DNA from: Echinicola jeungdonensis
Lineage (GTDB): Bacteria; Bacteroidota; Bacteroidia; Cytophagales; Cyclobacteriaceae
Assembly (NCBI RefSeq): GCF_030409905.1
Contig: NZ_JAUFQT010000001.1
Span: 3,123,001-3,187,000, forward strand
DNA: 64,000 bases
Direction: 5' to 3'
Within the stretch, counting starts at the first letter, position 1; every line of letters starts with the position of its first letter. Below the pieces are notes generated by a model. It was given only the letters and a program-made list of their open reading frames with translations, had not been told where the DNA came from and did no database searches. Shown one piece after another: positions 1 to 9,365 of the stretch. The position numbers and the translations under genes were made by a program.

Positions 1-1315
1 CGTATACAATCAAAGATTCATTATAACCTCTTATGGGAAGGTTTATTTCCCACTGGTATTCAGGAGACCAATGCCAATACAAAACATCTTGCCCCCCTTG
101 TGTGTACCAATCCCATTCCACTTCATGCCAAAGTTGGGTGATGGTATCTATGATTGCTTTCTCCTCCGGAATGTTTTGATTCAGGTAAGCTTTAACGGAA
201 AGCAGTCCCTGAATCATGAAGGCTGTTTCAACCAAATCACCACCATTATCTCTTTGGCTAAATGGAATGGTTTCCCCTGTATTACCATTCATCCAATGGG
301 GCCATACACCATGGAATCGATCGGCTTGAGCAAGGAAATTGACAATTTTGGTCCACCTTTCCACCGCTTGATTCCTGGTGATAAAGCCTCTTTCTACCCC
401 CACAATCAAAGCCATTACCCCAAAGCCTGATCCTCCAATGGTGACCAAATTGCCTGAAGTATTCCTTTCCCTTGCGAGTCCACTATTTTCATGGGCAAAA
501 TCCCAGAAATAACGGAATGTTTGAGCCTGAACTTTGGTCATCAGTTCCTCTTCTGATATCATTGGGAACTTTGGGGATTCGTCAATTTCAGCATAAAATG
601 ATTCCGTAAACCCTTCAAAAGTTTCGCCATTGATACCTTTTAAAGATTCATCAATTTCAAGGGTGTATTGGGAAAGAAATTGGAGAGCGGTATTACCGGT
701 AATGGTGACCTCCCGGCCGTCATTGGAAAAGGAATATTGCAAATTTGGTGCATTGGGTCCGTTAAGACTTATTGCATTTTGCAGGGATTCCTGATCGATG
801 GGGATTGAAAATTGGACCTTTATGGAAAAGGAAACAGGAACATCAACAATGGTTCCGGTTGGAGTTGAATTACTGTTTTCGATGGTGAATGATCCAACTT
901 GAATTTCCTCAAGGATGGTCTTGAAAAACACCTCTTTTCTTGGAAAGTTAACTCCATTGGCACTTTTTAGAGAATTTGATATTTCTATCCGGTATTGGGT
1001 TCCCCTTTTCAAAACTCCCTGGGAATTGATCACGACAGATCGATTTCCGGATAGGAGGTTGGTGGTAATGTTGACCGGAGTGTTTCCTTCATGCAAGGTG
1101 ATCGCCCCCGCCACATGAGAAGGTGAAACCGGACTTGAAAATGTTAGGGTAATAGATCGGTCTACAGGAATGTTTTCAGTTATAGGAGCATTCAAATTGA
1201 TTGTCAAATCCCCTGCAGAAACCTCCAACAACCCAAAAGATGGATCCCCGTTTTCATCATCATTACATCTGAAAAAAAGGGCAAGGCAGACTAAAAGAAG
1301 CAGAGAATACCGCAT
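1..1315 (-). CDS. Glucoamylase-family (PF10091) lipoprotein, C-terminus outside window
   Basis: Reads from ATG at 1315 down through the window edge without a stop, so at least 438 residues are present and the C-terminus is missing. The N-terminus is a hydrophobic signal followed by CNDDEN, suggesting a surface lipoprotein, although Arg before the Cys is atypical for a lipobox. Two bacterial Ig-like (Big_5-type) segments occupy roughly residues 40-240. The helical catalytic domain then begins near FRYFWDFAHENSG and includes GGSGFGVMAL and GGDLVETAFM, recognised as the PF10091 putative glucoamylase family. That family includes GH144 endo-beta-1,2-glucanases, so beta-1,2-glucan is a possible substrate, but this is inference. 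It is the last readable gene of the SusCD locus and probably its glycoside hydrolase. Confidence 0.82.
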   Translation of the reverse strand, partial: MRYSLLLLVCLALFFRCNDDENGDPSFGLLEVSAGDLTINLNAPITENIPVDRSITLTFSSPVSPSHVAGAITLHEGNTPVNITTNLLSGNRSVVINSQGVLKRGTQYRIEISNSLKSANGVNFPRKEVFFKTILEEIQVGSFTIENSNSTPTGTIVDVPVSFSIKVQFSIPIDQESLQNAISLNGPNAPNLQYSFSNDGREVTITGNTALQFLSQYTLEIDESLKGINGETFEGFTESFYAEIDESPKFPMISEEELMTKVQAQTFRYFWDFAHENSGLARERNTSGNLVTIGGSGFGVMALIVGVERGFITRNQAVERWTKIVNFLAQADRFHGVWPHWMNGNTGETIPFSQRDNGGDLVETAFMIQGLLSVKAYLNQNIPEEKAIIDTITQLWHEVEWDWYTQGGQDVLYWHWSPEYQWEINLPIRGYNESLIVY

Positions 1316-1382: not shown

Positions 1383-2480
1383 TTAAGGTTGTTCGTTTGC
1401 CATGATTTCCTGAATCTCACTTGCTGTAAGGGCTTTATTAAAGATTCGTAATTCATCAATAAAGCTCAAATCAGATAAGTGGTTGAATCCAGTAAACCTC
1501 GGAGCACCTGATGCAATGGAAATAATATCACATTCCGCCCAGCTAATTCCAGGAAAGCTGCCCTGGCTGACCACTTCTCCATTGATGTAAACTGCACATG
1601 CTGCTTCAGAAATGGTAAAAGCCATATGGACCCATCCAGTGTTAGTAGTGGGGTCAATAGATGCTGCAGCACCACCGTCAAACCAATTTTCTCCATCACC
1701 ATTCCCGACATTTAATTTAAAGATCTGATTGGTGGGGCCCCCTTCCCTAAAGAACCTGAATCCTTCAGTTCTATCGTTTTGGGAATTGGGGTTGTCCGGA
1801 TCTGGAGGTCCAATTACTAAAATCCCTGCCCTTGTAGGGTCAGCATTTATTTTATACCAGAATGAAGCACTGATTTCATTATTCAATAACCCTGTAGTGG
1901 GAAGGGTTAGGTAAGATCCAGTTGCACCCGCATAGGCATTTAAGCCTTCGACACTCTCTCCAGCAAACCCTGGGTTACCCACTGTGGTTGCTTCTGTGAT
2001 GCTTACCAATTCCATATAGTCTCCATCAAATGGCATGTAAAATATTTCACCGTCATATTCAGGATTATATGGAGGGACTTTTTCAAAATTAACACTGCTT
2101 GTTGTGGACTTTCCATTGATGTCTGTGGCAACAATGGTAAGTGTGTGTTGACCATTGGTGAGGTTTTCATAAGTAAATTCCTCAATTGCCCTTCTGTAAT
2201 CTATAAAACTATCAAATGTGGCAATTTCACTTCCATCCAAGCTCACGGTTATAGATTGGATTTCTATATCATCTGTTACTTCGAATTGGATGTTGATTGG
2301 GGTCACATCTTCCGTCACCCGTATCATTGTTCCCTCTAATGGGTAGTCGATCATTACTTCCGGGCTTTCTTCATCGGAACCCGGATCAACATGTTGGATA
2401 TCATCAATATATTCATCATCACAGCCAAAGCTTAAAAGGAGCAATGCTGCTATTATCATATTAAAGGTTTTCATCTGCAT
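1383..2480 (-). CDS. LamG-like (concanavalin A fold) domain lipoprotein of the SusCD locus
   Basis: 365 residues. The signal peptide ends in LLLSFGC (Cys20), followed by acidic residues typical of exported Bacteroidota lipoproteins. Residues about 35-135 look like an Ig/PKD-type beta domain. Residues about 150-360 resemble a LamG/Laminin_G_3 jellyroll, with SASFWYKINADP, GWVHMAFTISEAACAVYING and a closing FIDELRIFNKALTASEIQEIM. Such domains bind carbohydrate, so a surface glycan-binding role beside SusD is inferred. No catalytic residues are evident. A second ATG two codons in (2474) is equally likely as start. Same strand and 33 nt after susD, so probably co-transcribed. Confidence 0.82.
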   Translation of the reverse strand: MQMKTFNMIIAALLLLSFGCDDEYIDDIQHVDPGSDEESPEVMIDYPLEGTMIRVTEDVTPINIQFEVTDDIEIQSITVSLDGSEIATFDSFIDYRRAIEEFTYENLTNGQHTLTIVATDINGKSTTSSVNFEKVPPYNPEYDGEIFYMPFDGDYMELVSITEATTVGNPGFAGESVEGLNAYAGATGSYLTLPTTGLLNNEISASFWYKINADPTRAGILVIGPPDPDNPNSQNDRTEGFRFFREGGPTNQIFKLNVGNGDGENWFDGGAAASIDPTTNTGWVHMAFTISEAACAVYINGEVVSQGSFPGISWAECDIISIASGAPRFTGFNHLSDLSFIDELRIFNKALTASEIQEIMANEQP

Positions 2481-2513: not shown

Positions 2514-4055
2514 TTAGCCTTGGTCGGCTGCTTCTTTTAACTGAGGTAGAATTCCCTGTTGCCCCAAAGGATAAGGGAGAAACCGGTCTTCCGTTGGTTC
2601 GTATTCTCTACCGCCGTAGTTCAATTCTGAAGTCCTACCATAGCGGACAAGGTCATAGAAACGAATACCCCATTCCATGCCAAACTCAGCGAATTTTTCA
2701 TCCAGTACCTGATCTAATGTTACTCCGGTAATATTTCCCAACCCCACCCTGGATCTTACCGCATTGACTGCGTCATCTGCAGACATTGCAGAACTGGTTG
2801 CTCCATTGACCAATGCTTCTGCGTGCATAAGCAGTACTTCTGAATACCTAATGCAAGTGAAATTTTTATTTTCTCCATAGTTAAACCTTCCTTCGGTTAA
2901 TTGCACGGAGGGTAAGTAATGCTTACCGCTCAGGAAATTATACCTGGGATGGTTGTTGAAAATATCCCCGTCGGGTGATTCATTGGAAATCCAATTTGGA
3001 AGGTCAGAATAATTAGGATCGGATTGGATCTCTGAAATTCCATCAGGGGTAAACAATACTGTTGTTTGGAGCCTTTCCCGTTCTCCCCGGTCAAGCATAA
3101 ACTTGATATATTTTACACTGGGTTCCCAGAAGCCCCATCCGGAACTGGCACCTGCTACTGCAGGAGTCCAACTTGATGGGCCGAAAAAGTTCCATAAATA
3201 CCTGTTTACAGTACCTGTAGATGTTCCATAATCTGAATATTGAAGCTCCAAGAGGTTCTCGTCGCTTAATTTTCCTGGAATTTTAAATAATTGGTAATAA
3301 TCAGGTTGCAAGGTGAACAAACCACTGCTAATAATTTGTCCAGTAGCATCAGCCACCTGTTGGTAATTTTGCAGTTCCAGCTGAGCCATTGCTTTTACTG
3401 CCAATGCAGTGGAACGGGTTACGCCTCCGCGTATATCCGAACGCTGATTGGGATGGACACTAGGAAGGGTAGGGATTGCCTCATCCATTTGGTCGGAAAT
3501 GTGTTGCATGACCTCTTCAAAGGTGGATAATTCCACATTAAATAAATGGCTGGGCTCTGAGCTTTCCGGTATAAGAATGCTTCCCCACAATCTGGCAAGC
3601 TGTAAAAGTTCAAACCCCCTCAATACTTTAATTTCAGCAATATATTGTTGGGAATTGGTGGAATTGGCACCTGCTTCCTCGTATTTTTGGATTTCTTCCA
3701 TGGCGCCATGCCAATACAAAATATCGGAATAAAGGTTCAGCCAGGTAGAATTATACATCCAGAAATTTCTGTCATAGCGGAATTCATCAGTTTCAATTAA
3801 AGGAAACTGGTCCCCAGCTGCATTGACGTCATCCCCCCTTACGGAGATAATGGGGAAAGTTTCCCATTGCAGATTATAAAACTGGCCATATGCTCCATAA
3901 AGCATTAGGACCATATCTTCTGACTGGGAATAATCAGTTTCTTGGGCAATGAGTTCATTTTCTAACGGCTCATCCAGCAGGTCATTACAAGACGTGGTGA
4001 AGGTCAGCGCCAATATCATTGCCAAGGCATATATTTTATATATTATATTTTTCAT
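2514..4055 (-). CDS. SusD/RagB family glycan-binding outer-membrane lipoprotein
   Basis: 513 residues, the usual SusD length. The lipobox at TTSC (Cys23) is followed by NDLLDEPLENEL, the typical SusD start, and TPR-like helices with VLRGFELLQLARLWG. A C-terminal RagB/SusD segment contains FGMEWGIRFYDLVRYGR. SusD proteins cap the SusC channel and bind oligosaccharides at the cell surface. The gene ends 34 nt before the LamG gene and begins 19 nt after susC, supporting one operon. Substrate cannot be read from the protein itself; the linked PF10091 hydrolase suggests a beta-glucan. Confidence 0.95.
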   Translation of the reverse strand: MKNIIYKIYALAMILALTFTTSCNDLLDEPLENELIAQETDYSQSEDMVLMLYGAYGQFYNLQWETFPIISVRGDDVNAAGDQFPLIETDEFRYDRNFWMYNSTWLNLYSDILYWHGAMEEIQKYEEAGANSTNSQQYIAEIKVLRGFELLQLARLWGSILIPESSEPSHLFNVELSTFEEVMQHISDQMDEAIPTLPSVHPNQRSDIRGGVTRSTALAVKAMAQLELQNYQQVADATGQIISSGLFTLQPDYYQLFKIPGKLSDENLLELQYSDYGTSTGTVNRYLWNFFGPSSWTPAVAGASSGWGFWEPSVKYIKFMLDRGERERLQTTVLFTPDGISEIQSDPNYSDLPNWISNESPDGDIFNNHPRYNFLSGKHYLPSVQLTEGRFNYGENKNFTCIRYSEVLLMHAEALVNGATSSAMSADDAVNAVRSRVGLGNITGVTLDQVLDEKFAEFGMEWGIRFYDLVRYGRTSELNYGGREYEPTEDRFLPYPLGQQGILPQLKEAADQG

Positions 4056-4074: not shown

Positions 4075-7000
4075 TTAAAATTTGACGTTTAATCCTACAG
4101 TGTACACAGCCGGGATTGGGTAAACCTGTCGGTCTATTCCATTAGCTACTTCTGGATTAAACCCGTTGTAATTAAAAACCGTCAGCGGCCTTTCCGCTGT
4201 TAGGGTGATGCTGGTTGCCGGCATCATCATTCCCATCAATTCTTTGTCAAGCAGGGAGTAAGTCAACCGGACATTTTGTACTCTGAAGTAAGAACCATCT
4301 TCTACGAAATAATCGCTCATATTTTGGTTCCACCCTTTTCTTATTCCAGCAGCAGAAGGGTAACGATTGGAAGTGCCTTCACCTCTCCAGAGGTTTTTGA
4401 CCAGTTCAGCATCAATGTTGGTGTCATTGGTAAAGATGACTTCCCCTCTTTTTCTGTTGAGGATATCATGACCTGATTGGCCTTGAATCAGTGCAGAGAA
4501 ATCCAGGTTTTTGTAAGTAATTCCCAGGTTGACCCCATAGGTGAGGTCAGGTAGGAAAGATCCAAGGATTACCCTGTCTTCATCATTGACCACCATGTCT
4601 CCATTTTGGTCCCTGAAAATGAAATCTCCTGGAACCAGATTGTTGTCATTAATAAATTCCTGGGTATAACCACTGTTATTTATTTGTTCTTCACTTTGGA
4701 ACACACCTACCACCTCGTAGCCAAAAAATGCTTGATAGGGTTCGCCGATGCGAGAAATTTGTCGGAATTCTGCAGATCCTGCACCTAAACCATCCGCACC
4801 CCCTAGGCCTTGAACGGTATTTTTAAGTGTTGCAAAATTTCCTCCGATATAATAGGAGAATTCGTTGGAAACAGCATTTTTCCAGTTTATGGAAACTTCC
4901 AATCCTTGGTTTCTGATTTCCCCGACACTTCTACGTTCCGTAGAACGGAAAACAGGGGGGATGATGCTGACGGAAAGGTTTTCAGTATCTCTGATAAAAT
5001 AATCAGCTTCCAGGGATAAACGGTCTCCGAAAAATCTAGCGTTCAATCCAAAGTTTTTCTCGACGGTTGTTTCCCATTGTTCGATCAGGTCAAATGTTGG
5101 GTTTAATCTTCTACCAATCACCCGGACATCATTGATCGCTGCACTGGTTTCTTCCAGGGTGGGAACTCCCACTGAAGGGCTGATACCGTCATTACCCAGC
5201 TGTCCCCATGAGGCCCTTAATTTTAAAAAGTCTATGCCATCCACTTGGAAGAAATCTTCTTCTGTAATAGCCCACCCAGCAGCAACTGTGGCGAAATTAC
5301 CCCATTTTTTCTGGAATTTATTATTACCATCCCTACGGAAGGTTCCGTACAATAAGTACCTTTCATCAAAATTATATGCGACTCTTCCAAAGAATGATTG
5401 ATAAAAAAGGCGAGAATTAATGGTAGAGCCATTTGAATCTCCAATGGAATTAAGGTCAAAATTTTGGGCATTGGATAGGTACCAGTACTGTTCGTTTTCC
5501 CAAGTTGGATTGGGAGTAATTCCTTCCCCTCTGGCAAATAAAACCTCACTGTATTCACTTCTAAAGGAATGGCCAAGTGTTACTGTTAAGTTATGATCTC
5601 CAAAGAAATTCGAATAAGTGAAGAAGTTGTCCCAAATTTGATCATAGGCACTGAAACTTTGCCTTCTGATAGAAGATTGGGATTCGGTAACCCCATCATT
5701 AAAAGCAAAATTCAAATTTCGGTCATTGATCGTTTCCAATTTGTAGTTGTATGCTGTTCGGAACCGGAGAATATTTGGAATGATTTGAATTTCAGAATGG
5801 AAGTTACCATTGATTTTGGCAATGTTTTTCCTGTTGTCATTATATAAAAGTGGATAAAAGGGGTTTTGACTACCCCTGTAACCAATTTGTTGGGCATTGG
5901 ACAATTGGAAAGGATTAGCAGCCGTATTCGTTTCGTCATAAACAGGAATGATTGGAACGGCAAAATAGCTTCTAAACCAAGCCGCATTTTCTCCCACATA
6001 TTGTCTGGCTACAGAGAAATTAAAATTGCCCCCTACGGTGATCCAATCCCTAATCTCAGTATCCATTTTGGCCCTGATGTTAACCCTTTTATAATTGTTT
6101 CGGGTCTCATTAAGTAAACCTTCTTGGTCGAAATAACTTCCTCCAATAGAGTATTTAGTTTTTTCCGACCCTCCATTAAAGGATAAACTGTGGTTTTGGA
6201 TGGAGGCCGGGCTCATAATTTCTGAATACCAATCGGTATTGACGGCTGGAATATTGGGATCTATCCGGCTACGGCCATAACGTTGCATGGCATTGTTGAC
6301 AAAAGCAATGTCTGCGGCTGAACCAGTTTCGTTCACATATTGAACAAATTGTTGGGTGTTGGCCATTTGCAAAACATTTTGAGGTACCTGGGTACCATAA
6401 TAACCATCATAAACTATTTCTGGTTTCTGCTCGTAATTTCCGGTTTTGGTTTCGATCAGAATCACTCCGTTAGAGGCCCTAACACCATAAATGGCAGCTG
6501 CAGAGGCATCTTTCAATACTGAAATGGTTTCAATGTCATTGGGGTTTAGGAAGTCGATGTTTTCAAAAAACATCCCATCCACTACATACAATGGGGCGGC
6601 ACCTCCTTCAAATGATCCCACACCCCTAACCCGTACTGTTGGGGAGGAGCCTGGAGCACCGCTGCTTACAATTTGCACACCGGCAACTCTACCTTGCAGG
6701 GATTGCATGGCATTGGAAGTTGGAGTTCGGACAATTTCATCCGATTTTATTGTTGTAATAGCAGAAGTCAAATCTTTTTCCCTTTGCGTACCATAACCAA
6801 TGATTACCACTTCCTCCAGTGAACTGATACTTTCCGTTAAGATTACGTTCAGGTTGGTCTGGCCATTTAAAGTTATTTCCTGGCTTTGAAATCCGATAAA
6901 TGAAAAAGTCAAACTTGCATCAGGTGAACTCACTGTAAAGGAGAACTCACCATCCAGATTGGTTACCGTACCATTATTGGTTCCTTTTTCCAAAATGTTT

Positions 7001-7176
7001 ACACCGGGGATCGGTTCCCCATTTGGGTCTGATACCGTTCCCGAGACATTTGTTTGTTGAGCAATTGTGGAGAAGGTAATGGTCAAAAATGCCATTACCA
7101 TTAACATCCATAGCTTTCCTAAATAAGGGATTTTGGGTTTCCATGATTCCTTACTGTTTCGTAAAGAGTTAATCAT
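4075..7176 (-). CDS. SusC/RagA family TonB-linked outer-membrane transporter
   Basis: About 1033 residues from the ATG at 7176; an upstream in-frame ATG at 7236 would add 20 residues ahead of an already adequate signal peptide, so the shorter form is preferred. Order: signal peptide ending FSTIAQQ, carboxypeptidase-regulatory-like beta sandwich (NVSGTVSDPNGEPIPGVN), SusC motif EEVVIIGYGTQREKDLT, plug domain with LYVVDGMFFEN and SVLKDASAAAIYGVRA, then a 22-strand barrel ending in VGLNVKF. It imports oligosaccharides with TonB energy in partnership with SusD directly downstream. Confidence 0.96.
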   Translation of the reverse strand: MINSLRNSKESWKPKIPYLGKLWMLMVMAFLTITFSTIAQQTNVSGTVSDPNGEPIPGVNILEKGTNNGTVTNLDGEFSFTVSSPDASLTFSFIGFQSQEITLNGQTNLNVILTESISSLEEVVIIGYGTQREKDLTSAITTIKSDEIVRTPTSNAMQSLQGRVAGVQIVSSGAPGSSPTVRVRGVGSFEGGAAPLYVVDGMFFENIDFLNPNDIETISVLKDASAAAIYGVRASNGVILIETKTGNYEQKPEIVYDGYYGTQVPQNVLQMANTQQFVQYVNETGSAADIAFVNNAMQRYGRSRIDPNIPAVNTDWYSEIMSPASIQNHSLSFNGGSEKTKYSIGGSYFDQEGLLNETRNNYKRVNIRAKMDTEIRDWITVGGNFNFSVARQYVGENAAWFRSYFAVPIIPVYDETNTAANPFQLSNAQQIGYRGSQNPFYPLLYNDNRKNIAKINGNFHSEIQIIPNILRFRTAYNYKLETINDRNLNFAFNDGVTESQSSIRRQSFSAYDQIWDNFFTYSNFFGDHNLTVTLGHSFRSEYSEVLFARGEGITPNPTWENEQYWYLSNAQNFDLNSIGDSNGSTINSRLFYQSFFGRVAYNFDERYLLYGTFRRDGNNKFQKKWGNFATVAAGWAITEEDFFQVDGIDFLKLRASWGQLGNDGISPSVGVPTLEETSAAINDVRVIGRRLNPTFDLIEQWETTVEKNFGLNARFFGDRLSLEADYFIRDTENLSVSIIPPVFRSTERRSVGEIRNQGLEVSINWKNAVSNEFSYYIGGNFATLKNTVQGLGGADGLGAGSAEFRQISRIGEPYQAFFGYEVVGVFQSEEQINNSGYTQEFINDNNLVPGDFIFRDQNGDMVVNDEDRVILGSFLPDLTYGVNLGITYKNLDFSALIQGQSGHDILNRKRGEVIFTNDTNIDAELVKNLWRGEGTSNRYPSAAGIRKGWNQNMSDYFVEDGSYFRVQNVRLTYSLLDKELMGMMMPATSITLTAERPLTVFNYNGFNPEVANGIDRQVYPIPAVYTVGLNVKF

Positions 7177-7478
7177 AAGAGTTTGGGTTTTGGGTTTTAC
7201 TAATTTAATTCCAAATAAATTTTCAATCGTTTGCAAGAGCGCCCTTTGCGAAATAAAAGGTAGGTTAAAGATTGATAAGCCGGATAAAAATCAAAAAAAA
7301 TAAGGGGGGGTTGGCTTGAAATTATAGAGAATTAGCAACAATAAATATCGGATTAATATCGGTAAAAAACAGCTTTTATGAGGGTTTATAGGAGGTTTAT
7401 TGTTTTGTTATCTCCTTTAAATACTAATTAAGAGGAGATGCATAAATTAATGGAAATGAAAATTTGGTAAAAAAAATA

Positions 7479-9365
7479 TTATTTGGTTTTCACCTTATTG
7501 TCTTCAAGCCAAAGGATGTCCTGCCAATGGGGATTTATCAAGCCTTTTTCCTGAATTAGCTGTTGGATTTTCTTTTTAAAGGTCCAAACGGTATTTCTGC
7601 GTAAATCCAACTGTTCAGAAAGTTGGTCCAGGGTTTGTTTTTCCGAATTGGAAATGGTGGAATAGGCGATATAAAATGCTTTTTCGATGGGGAATTTGAT
7701 GCCATGGAAAACCGTTCCTGCAGTTACTGAATCTATATGGCCACACTTGGAGCATCTTTTTGTAAATAACTTGGGGCCTTTGGAAAATTTGGTGTTGCCG
7801 CAGTGACGACATACAAATCCTTGTCCCCATTTGAATTCCTCCAGGTACCTGAAACAGGCTGCTTGATCCGGAAAAATCTTTTGGATTTCCTCATAGGACA
7901 ATAACTTATTTGTAAGCCTTGCTTGGAAGGATGCTTTGATGCTGCTTTTTAGTTTCCAATTGTCTTTGTCCAGGATGGCGTTGAAGCGTTTGATTTCTTC
8001 ATCTTTTTCCATCAACTGCTCGTTATATTTTTCTAAAAGCTGGTTTTTATCTTTCAATTCCCGGGTTCTTTCTTCCACTTTGAGCTCCAGTTCCTGAGTT
8101 ACCTTTTCTTTAAGGGCATAGTTAATTTCTATTTGTTTGATGGCTCTTTTCATGGCCCTGTCCCGGTTGTTTTTAAGGATCCTGATCCGGTCACCCAATG
8201 CAAAAGTTAATAGTAACATTTCCAACAAAAAAGCAATATGAAGACTATAATAAATCAGGGTCATATGGGGGATAATGGCAGTATTTACCAAAACCTTGAT
8301 TACTACACCAAAAAACAAAACACCGTAAGCAATTACGAAAAATCGGGCTACCTTATAGCCTCTTGACCATATATAGATACTGGCAAAAAAGATAAAGGAA
8401 AAAGGAATGATGTCATAATACCTAATTTCAAATAACTTTGGATCCCAGATTAAGCCTACCAGAAACAGCACTGATTTGATGCCTAAAATGGCTAAAAGAA
8501 ATTGATGGATCTTTGGGGAGCGGTGCTTGATATTTAAAAATCTTATAGAGAACAATATGGCCCAAAGAACAATGGAATAACTGAATATTCCATTGGCAAT
8601 TTGGTTCCAGGAAGGGTGGTTAGGCCATAGGTATTGGAAAGCTATGCCATCCACACACATGGCATAAATCCCCACACTGGCAAGGTAAAAAGTGTAATAT
8701 AGGTATTTGATTTCCCTTACCGCTGTATAAACCAGGAGGTTGTATAATCCGATAATTGCTATCATGCCATAAAAAATACCGTAAACAAAATACTCATTGA
8801 GGGCATAATAGATGAACCGGTTTAAAGAGCGGATGGCAATCCGGATGTCTGCTTTTTGATTTGATCTGATTTTGATGTAATAGTTGTCAATTCCCTCTTC
8901 GTTATTGTTAAGGATCAGTTCAAAGTTTTTATGGGAAAATAACCTGGTTTGGAAAGAATGAGCATCACCAAATTTATACTTTTCATACCCACCAGTTCCA
9001 TCGGGGGCAAATACCTCTATGGAATCTATGGTTTGGTCATAAAATTCCATCAACCATTTTTTATTGCTTTCGGGAGTTTTTTCGATAGATAGCTTAACCC
9101 AATAAGTGTTATGGATATCAAATTTATTCTTTGAAAAGGAAGGCCGTATTTTAAAATTGTCCTGAAAATCAGGGGCTACAACATCCTTAAATTCAAGTGT
9201 GTTTTCCTTGTCCTCAAAAAACTCTAATTGGGAAATTGAAAAAATCCGCTCGTTGAGGTTATCATCGATTTTTAATGTGGAACTTCCGGAAATCCTTTGG
9301 CCAAAAACCGAAATGGGTAGGGTTAGAACCAAAAGGATTAAAGCTTTTAGGAATTTTGGATTCAT
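7479..9365 (-). CDS. 7TM-DISM membrane sensor fused to transposase-type zinc ribbon and HTH
   Basis: 628 residues. Signal peptide (1-22); periplasmic jelly-roll 7TMR-DISMED2-like domain (about 30-180, with NTYWVKLSI and NYYIKIRSNQKADIRIAI); seven membrane helices (about 190-400); cytoplasmic coiled coil (about 400-470). The C-terminus holds a zinc ribbon with Cys519, Cys522, Cys538 and Cys541, then DSVTAGTVFHGIKFPI and a helix-turn-helix near 578-600 (TLDQLSEQLDLRRNTVW). That C-terminus resembles the DNA-binding N-terminus of IS1595-type transposases (Zn_Tnp_IS1595); there is no DDE catalytic domain. No kinase, receiver or cyclase domain is present. It lies upstream of susC on the same strand, so I infer a membrane-bound one-component regulator of this locus that senses glycan outside and contacts DNA inside. 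Confidence 0.88.
   Translation of the reverse strand: MNPKFLKALILLVLTLPISVFGQRISGSSTLKIDDNLNERIFSISQLEFFEDKENTLEFKDVVAPDFQDNFKIRPSFSKNKFDIHNTYWVKLSIEKTPESNKKWLMEFYDQTIDSIEVFAPDGTGGYEKYKFGDAHSFQTRLFSHKNFELILNNNEEGIDNYYIKIRSNQKADIRIAIRSLNRFIYYALNEYFVYGIFYGMIAIIGLYNLLVYTAVREIKYLYYTFYLASVGIYAMCVDGIAFQYLWPNHPSWNQIANGIFSYSIVLWAILFSIRFLNIKHRSPKIHQFLLAILGIKSVLFLVGLIWDPKLFEIRYYDIIPFSFIFFASIYIWSRGYKVARFFVIAYGVLFFGVVIKVLVNTAIIPHMTLIYYSLHIAFLLEMLLLTFALGDRIRILKNNRDRAMKRAIKQIEINYALKEKVTQELELKVEERTRELKDKNQLLEKYNEQLMEKDEEIKRFNAILDKDNWKLKSSIKASFQARLTNKLLSYEEIQKIFPDQAACFRYLEEFKWGQGFVCRHCGNTKFSKGPKLFTKRCSKCGHIDSVTAGTVFHGIKFPIEKAFYIAYSTISNSEKQTLDQLSEQLDLRRNTVWTFKKKIQQLIQEKGLINPHWQDILWLEDNKVKTK

Follow-up and report, generated by a model that had tools for sequence, protein, structure and literature searches.

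The window, by which we mean the whole 64,000-nucleotide stretch of Echinicola jeungdonensis DNA analysed here, carries on its minus strand a gene for a protein of 628 residues, P0001, whose frame runs uninterrupted from an ATG at 9365 to a stop at 7479 (Table 1). The sequence-only reading had placed this gene directly upstream of susC without giving a strand, and susC is indeed the next gene on the same (minus) strand, after a gap of 242 bp to its listed TTG start or 302 bp to the more likely ATG at 7176. It is followed by susD, a lectin-like gene and a GH144-type gene that runs past the left end of the window; to the left of the window the locus continues with three GH144 genes, two for GH3 enzymes, two for sulfatases, and genes for a GH43 enzyme, an esterase and a phosphoesterase. 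The GH144 identification is based on the protein of a related locus (L035), to which the window protein is 57% identical and which matches the endo-beta-1,2-glucanase 5gzh (E 4.5e-192). According to the accessible text of one study, GH144 loci serve beta-1,2-glucan and marine organisms have sulfatase-bearing versions of them (PMC6499787); the two sulfatases of the present locus (L134) resemble the marine loci as described in that part of the paper. Between the lectin-like and GH144 genes, at 1337-1363, there is also a hairpin of 12 pairs, a possible attenuator or terminator within the operon.

Table 1. Features of the receptor gene, the gap behind it and the adjoining locus (window coordinates)
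Feature	Position	Strand	Basis or remark
Receptor-regulator gene P0001, 628 aa	7479..9365	-	DISMED2, 7TM, signalling helix, IS1595 zinc ribbon, HTH
7TMR-DISMED2 sensor domain, aa 46-178	8832..9230	-	Pfam PF07696, 92.2 bits (cut-off 22)
7TMR-DISM_7TM membrane domain, aa 191-393	8187..8795	-	Pfam PF07695, 158.3 bits (cut-off 29)
Coiled-coil linker, aa ~395-480, ERT at 432-434	7926..8183	-	Sequence; read as signalling helix
IS1595-type Cys4 zinc ribbon, aa 499-543, Cys519/522/538/541	7737..7871	-	Pfam PF12760 Zn_ribbon_IS1595, 36.9 bits (cut-off 25.4)
HTH region like the N-terminal part of IS1595 transposases, aa 557-606	7548..7697	-	NCBIfam NF033547
Operator-like site 1, TTAGTATTTAAAGGAGATAA	7408..7427	-	Top-scoring site of the model trained without the window
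Operator-like site 2, CCGATATTAATCCGATATTT	7343..7362	-	Second-best in the leave-out test; 65 bp from site 1, direct orientation
Candidate Bacteroidota -7 promoter element, TACCTTT	7256..7262	-	In the receptor-susC gap
susC (TonB-dependent receptor)	4075..7236	-	Pfam Plug, CarbopepD_reg_2; likely true start ATG 7176
susD	2514..4055	-	Pfam SusD_RagB
Lectin-like protein, Big_7 and Laminin_G_3	1383..2480	-	Pfam
GH144-type gene	1..1315	-	PF10091 and Big_5; continues past the window's left end; L134:16354-18315

P0001 is a 7TMR-DISM receptor, its DISM_7TM and DISMED2 domains both lying above the Pfam cut-offs, and the DISMED2 domain is presumably periplasmic, outside the membrane. The linker that follows contains the motif KVEERTREL, so that the ERT signature stands between input and output. 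This signature is described, in the accessible text of the relevant paper, as the mark of the signalling helix (S-helix), which at low frequency links signalling domains to HTH domains (PMC1592074). R433 and T434 are invariant in our two alignments (24/24 and 36/36 sequences), with the E varying in some rows, and a looser [ED]R[TS] pattern occurs beyond residue 350 in 99 of 122 long module proteins. The C terminus of P0001 is accounted for by an IS1595 module, and the architecture proposed from the letters alone, a 7TM-DISM half ending in a Cys4 zinc ribbon plus HTH with no DDE, kinase or cyclase domain, is borne out. Cys519/522/538/541 are invariant in the same 24 and 36 aligned sequences, P0001 among them, and the pattern CxxC-x(10-20)-CxxC is kept in all 122 module proteins longer than 400 residues in the loci examined. 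The HTH is recognised less firmly: the match to NF033547 (IS1595 transposase) covers positions 3-53 of 215 at E 1.3e-4, its 21.9 bits being below the cut-off of 75, and HTH families are prominent among the weak Pfam matches of 10 members. Neither the DDE_Tnp_IS1595/ISXO2-like catalytic domain (PF12762) nor a kinase, cyclase, sigma, FecR or receiver domain gave a Pfam match in P0001 at E≤1, which agrees with the earlier view that the protein is distinct from hybrid two-component and ECF/anti-sigma regulators. From the Pfam zinc ribbon and the partial NF033547 match it follows that both DNA-binding parts of a transposase are present and the catalytic part is absent; P0001, having the ribbon and lacking the DDE, is not classed as a transposase. 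Sequence searches of solved structures returned nothing at E≤0.1 for the whole protein and nothing significant for the module alone (best E 0.18).

IS1595 transposases have in common with P0001 the zinc ribbon PF12760 and the following HTH, and two DDE-bearing proteins (L161 and L169) have similar modules, whereas P0001 is without DDE_Tnp_IS1595 and is fused to a receptor. The module appears to be of transposase origin, as had been suggested; the profile matches in Pfam and NCBIfam support this view, as does a tree grouping of moderate strength. The tree comprises 81 modules, with roughly a quarter of the kept loci represented. In it, 66 sensor-fused modules and one stand-alone module of 137 residues group apart from the DDE transposases (support 93/88); it is built on few alignment columns, many of its forks are weak, and it leaves the fork between the stand-alone module and the sensor-fused ones unresolved. 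The module also occurs on a different sensor: two of the divergent members fetched, L158 (1068 residues, immediately before susC-susD) and L159 (997 residues), carry it on Reg_prop and Y_Y_Y domains with no 7TM receptor. Such fusions seem to be rare, since among the best 120 of the 249 matches to the L158 module the query's own entry is the only one to show these domains. This would fit, without proving, one capture of the module followed by an exchange of sensors.

Elsewhere in the Echinicola genome the IS1595-type zinc ribbon is matched ten more times, once in a frame of 82 residues and otherwise in frames of 310; the sole one tested (L005) carries the IS1595 DDE domain. Beside this copy there is an array with a 76-bp period (L005:8-1281, 14 copies found), a period that we presume to be compatible with a CRISPR array of type II-C; over 3.1 kb L005 does not differ from L011. 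Another genome of the class, G162, has 15 module matches in frames of 296-339 residues, and in the six that were fetched (L043-L048, about 300-330 residues) the DDE positions, judged by eye, seem to hold other residues, L043 giving a DDE match below threshold only; these proteins are possibly a family of inactive, repurposed transposases. Finally, two short proteins (L049:1194-1607, 137 residues, and L051:4887-5444, 185 residues) have the zinc ribbon without a Pfam DDE or sensor domain and are candidates for soluble regulators or remnants.

The fusion is a member of a large family and no one-off. A protein search found 1013 relatives of P0001 at E≤1e-3 among 8000 candidates, and the 7TM domain is present in the best 120 of the 1013. 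A scan of genome contigs gave 197 places, from which we retained the best 80 as a set of loci; every match in this set covers at least residues 39-602 of P0001, which, together with the intact frame, excludes the frameshift or misassembly that the sequence-only reading had named as its possible undoing. Absence of the fusion from relatives, a second such condition, is likewise refuted by these searches. A profile of the module built from 10 rows matched 125 of 341 genomes in a sample of the order and 28 of 395 in a sample of the class (both at E≤1e-18), and 36 of 296 in a sample of the phylum (E≤1e-8), nine of these with a match in a frame longer than 600 residues and most of the remaining frames short or transposase-sized. 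There are up to 13 module matches per genome, and in G401 ten of the matches listed are in frames longer than 600 residues. Within the Echinicola genome a paralogue of P0001 sits inside a xylan-type locus (GH10, GH43, GH115, GH3). Database names for members range from "7TM diverse intracellular signaling domain-containing protein" and "receptor" to "transposase" and "sensor histidine kinase LadS".

A profile search for proteins of the same domain order beside SusCD had been proposed as a check, and in the retained set 72 of the 80 receptor genes are followed directly by a co-directional susC, as against 7 of 823 other genes. Of the 80 loci, 75 have SusC among the next six same-strand genes, 71 have SusD, 67 have GH144 and 55 have a lectin-like protein, so that the usual context is a GH144 beta-1,2-glucan locus, as in the window; SusC is missing from this range in L067, L085, L087, L093 and L116, of which L116 lies close to a contig end. 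Many of the loci are orthologues, so the counts do not represent independent cases. Of 45 additional stretches, 42 hold a long module gene, with susC next in 11 of the 42 (6 of 434 for other genes); SusC or SusD occurs anywhere in the fetched stretch for 21 of these members, SusCD or a GH-query match for 31, and neither for 11. Members from genomes of family f63 (L146-L155, from G363, G388, G438 and G308) show no SusC or SusD in the 16.5 kb fetched.

The gap between receptor and susC contains two direct repeats of about 20 bp. An unsupervised motif search over 74 such gaps (72 from the retained loci, L041 and the window, many of these promoters being related by descent) gave TGtTtTT.AagcG..AaA, with a log-likelihood of 440 against 112-118 for three shuffled sets that had half as many starts as the real search. 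Spacing took no part in the training. The two best sites are 63-67 bp apart in 62 of the 74 promoters, whereas 100 shuffles gave this spacing in 2.7 promoters on average and in 8 at most. With the common matrix the window scores weakly and is one of the 12 whose top two sites fall outside this range. A model trained on 27 relatives with the window excluded ranked the two window sites first and second, 65 bp apart, with a pair score reached in none of 1000 shuffles. Trained on 28 Cyclobacteriaceae-type promoters, the model predicts pairs at 63-67 bp in 25 of the 44 others, and the reverse gives 10 of 28; an initial cross-validation with fewer starts had given 27 of 44 one way and 0 of 28 the other, the distant promoters having trained to a T-rich motif. 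A pattern derived from the two window sites has no other exact match in the 4.5-Mb genome, a result that is partly by construction, and single sites with at most one mismatch number 24 (two of them exact) compared with 38 for a reversed control pattern. In Bacteroidota the -7 promoter consensus is TAnnTTTG; the candidate -7 element in the gap begins about 80 bp below the end of site 2, and visual inspection showed TACCTTTTC close to susC in several relatives. A motif search downstream of the sites gave no clear candidate for a fixed promoter element, and an RNA family search of the promoter yielded one sub-threshold match, which was discarded. Comparison of the sites with the ends of an element in a relative, G842, and with those of the IS copies in the Echinicola genome produced no convincing match that would speak for a transposon-end origin of the operator.

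The eight retained loci in which susC is not next to the receptor had been held out of the training. In four of them (L061, L062, L129 and L116) the pair lies directly after the receptor, with scores of 28.6, 23.3, 36.0 and 23.7 respectively, and the adjoining gene is esterase-like in the first three and lectin-like in L116; ahead of the more distant susC the scores are 3.0 (L061), 4.6 (L062) and 0.5 (L129). The pair thus tracks the beginning of whichever operon follows the receptor. It was not found in L067 and L087 (scores 5.6 and -14.2), both of which are without a SusCD locus downstream, and in L085 and L093 the gap is too short to score. As a control we took 20 GH144 regions without a listed module match nearby; eight had no susC in the stretch, one had its susC too near the edge, and the eleven that could be scored all have pair scores below 20 (median -3.1). 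By comparison, 61 of 70 scorable susC genes adjoining a receptor attain 20 (median 27.3), these promoters being the motif's own training set, and none of six other susC genes in the retained loci, one of them L061's own, reaches 20. Typed in ten of the eleven control loci, the gene before susC encodes FecR in two, Reg_prop and/or Y_Y_Y domains in four, and a non-regulator in the other four (FAD oxidoreductase, GH15, DnaB, DUF4249).

Other receptor lineages have pairs of their own. One that accompanies a GH3 locus has candidate sites, TTTTTTTTAAGTGATA-like and 80-81 bp apart, in 7/7 promoters with a 16-bp model and in 5/7 with a 20-bp model; a plain self-comparison flags four of the seven, leaving out L139, L144 and L171. 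In L041 and L164 there are AAGCGTAT-type pairs at 76 and 91 bp. The same plain scan for tandem repeats, tried on 49 loci of which three lacked a long module ORF, flagged eleven regions around the remaining 46. We count six of these as meaningful (L041, L141, L156, L164, L173 and L174) because their repeats fit the motif, and have treated the other five as chance. Nothing was flagged beside the Echinicola paralogue (L034), and the pair at 64-66 bp was found in none of 11 divergent receptor-susC gaps, nor behind the receptor in L039, L040 and L042. These lineage-specific pairs and absences imply that both spacing and sequence differ between lineages.

According to the profile matches and the predicted topology, a single chain of P0001 combines a sensor, membrane segments and a DNA-binding domain, which is the layout of a one-component regulator. 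We consider it likely that P0001 regulates transcription of the adjoining downstream polysaccharide-utilisation locus from the membrane as a single polypeptide, with a domesticated transposase DNA-binding domain as its head. The DISMED2 domain and the 7TM bundle would sense a glycan fragment, presumably a beta-1,2-glucan oligosaccharide; the DISMED2 domain of NicD has been linked to direct carbohydrate binding in the accessible text of PMC8544897. The fragment would alter a dimer formed by the 7TM part and the signalling helix, and the signal would pass along the dimeric helix to the cytoplasmic zinc ribbon-HTH head, an IS1595-family module that has lost its DDE. Two such heads would be placed on the two direct sites of about 20 bp, about 65 bp apart and upstream of the promoter, and the bound head would control, most likely activate, susC, susD and the lectin-like and GH144 genes. 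That each protomer of the dimer holds one site, as a transposase holds the two transposon ends, is a step past the evidence. More tentatively still, one could imagine that in Bacteroidota a transposase DNA-binding domain was captured once as an output domain, became attached to 7TM-DISM and, independently, to Reg_prop/Y_Y_Y sensors, and then multiplied to as many as about ten members per genome, each holding two transposon-end-like sites at a lineage-specific spacing and reusing the two-ended grip of the transposase dimer to loop a promoter; this broader scenario is possible, and we would not put it higher than that.

That the sign of regulation is the opposite, with P0001 repressing the locus until the glycan releases it, is a variant of the activator reading and not exclusive of it. 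The data would allow either sign, but both sites are upstream of the candidate -7 element, a position that would be more usual for activators, and repression seems to us rather unlikely. Another reading would be that some other DNA-binding protein occupies the tandem sites, the receptor being genuine and its tail having turned into a protein-interaction or signalling module. Single sites are not in excess in the Echinicola genome, so that a wider regulon cannot link site and protein. However, the pair accompanies the receptor even when another gene stands between receptor and susC, it is absent from the eleven receptor-less GH144-susC loci, a pair with a different sequence and spacing accompanies a separate receptor lineage, and the Cys4 motif is kept throughout the 122 module proteins; we therefore regard this explanation as improbable. 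As for the module being a functionless transposase remnant fused to a receptor by chance, the ten further zinc-ribbon matches in the same genome and the name "transposase" given to some homologues might invite such a reading. Against it stand the full-length conservation across the retained loci, the linkage to susC and the grouping of sensor-fused modules apart from the sampled DDE transposases, and it is hardly credible.

RetS and LadS are 7TMR-DISM receptors. With such receptors P0001 shares, as the accessible description of NicD (PMC8544897) allows the comparison, the DISMED2 and 7TM_DISM input half and a helical linker; their output is a GGDEF domain or a histidine kinase, whereas that of P0001 is a DNA-binding domain. 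The nearest precedent that we found is in proteobacteria, where ChiS-family DNA-binding domains also occur on 7TMR-DISM receptors (PMC8092284). The layout, 7TMR-DISM plus a C-terminal DNA-binding domain, is common to both; the ChiS-family domain is a cryptic HTH variant from another phylum, and the section of that paper in which it is described mentions neither transposases nor SusCD loci. The layout is thus already known in kind, while the transposase origin, the phylum, the linkage to susC and the tandem sites are different.

The known regulators of polysaccharide-utilisation loci are hybrid two-component systems, ECF sigma/anti-sigma (FecR) pairs and SusR, and it is customary to assign glycan-locus regulators of Bacteroidota to a small number of such classes. 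Like P0001, these are encoded beside susCD, and FecR or Reg_prop/Y_Y_Y genes precede susC in 6 of the 10 typed receptor-less GH144 loci; unlike the hybrid two-component and ECF sigma/FecR regulators, P0001 has no kinase, receiver, sigma factor or FecR domain. No published description of the fusion was found by title or by the start of the abstract in open-licence PubMed Central text; a passage of PMC5342196 proved to deal with a GGDEF receptor and was discounted. Since members carry mixed database names, surveys by name would miss the class. If the role that we propose is correct, P0001 and its relatives would constitute a widespread further class of glycan-locus regulators in Bacteroidota and a clear case of a transposase DNA-binding domain serving as the output of a transmembrane receptor, with a short and testable chain, including predicted binding sites, leading from an outer signal to a promoter.
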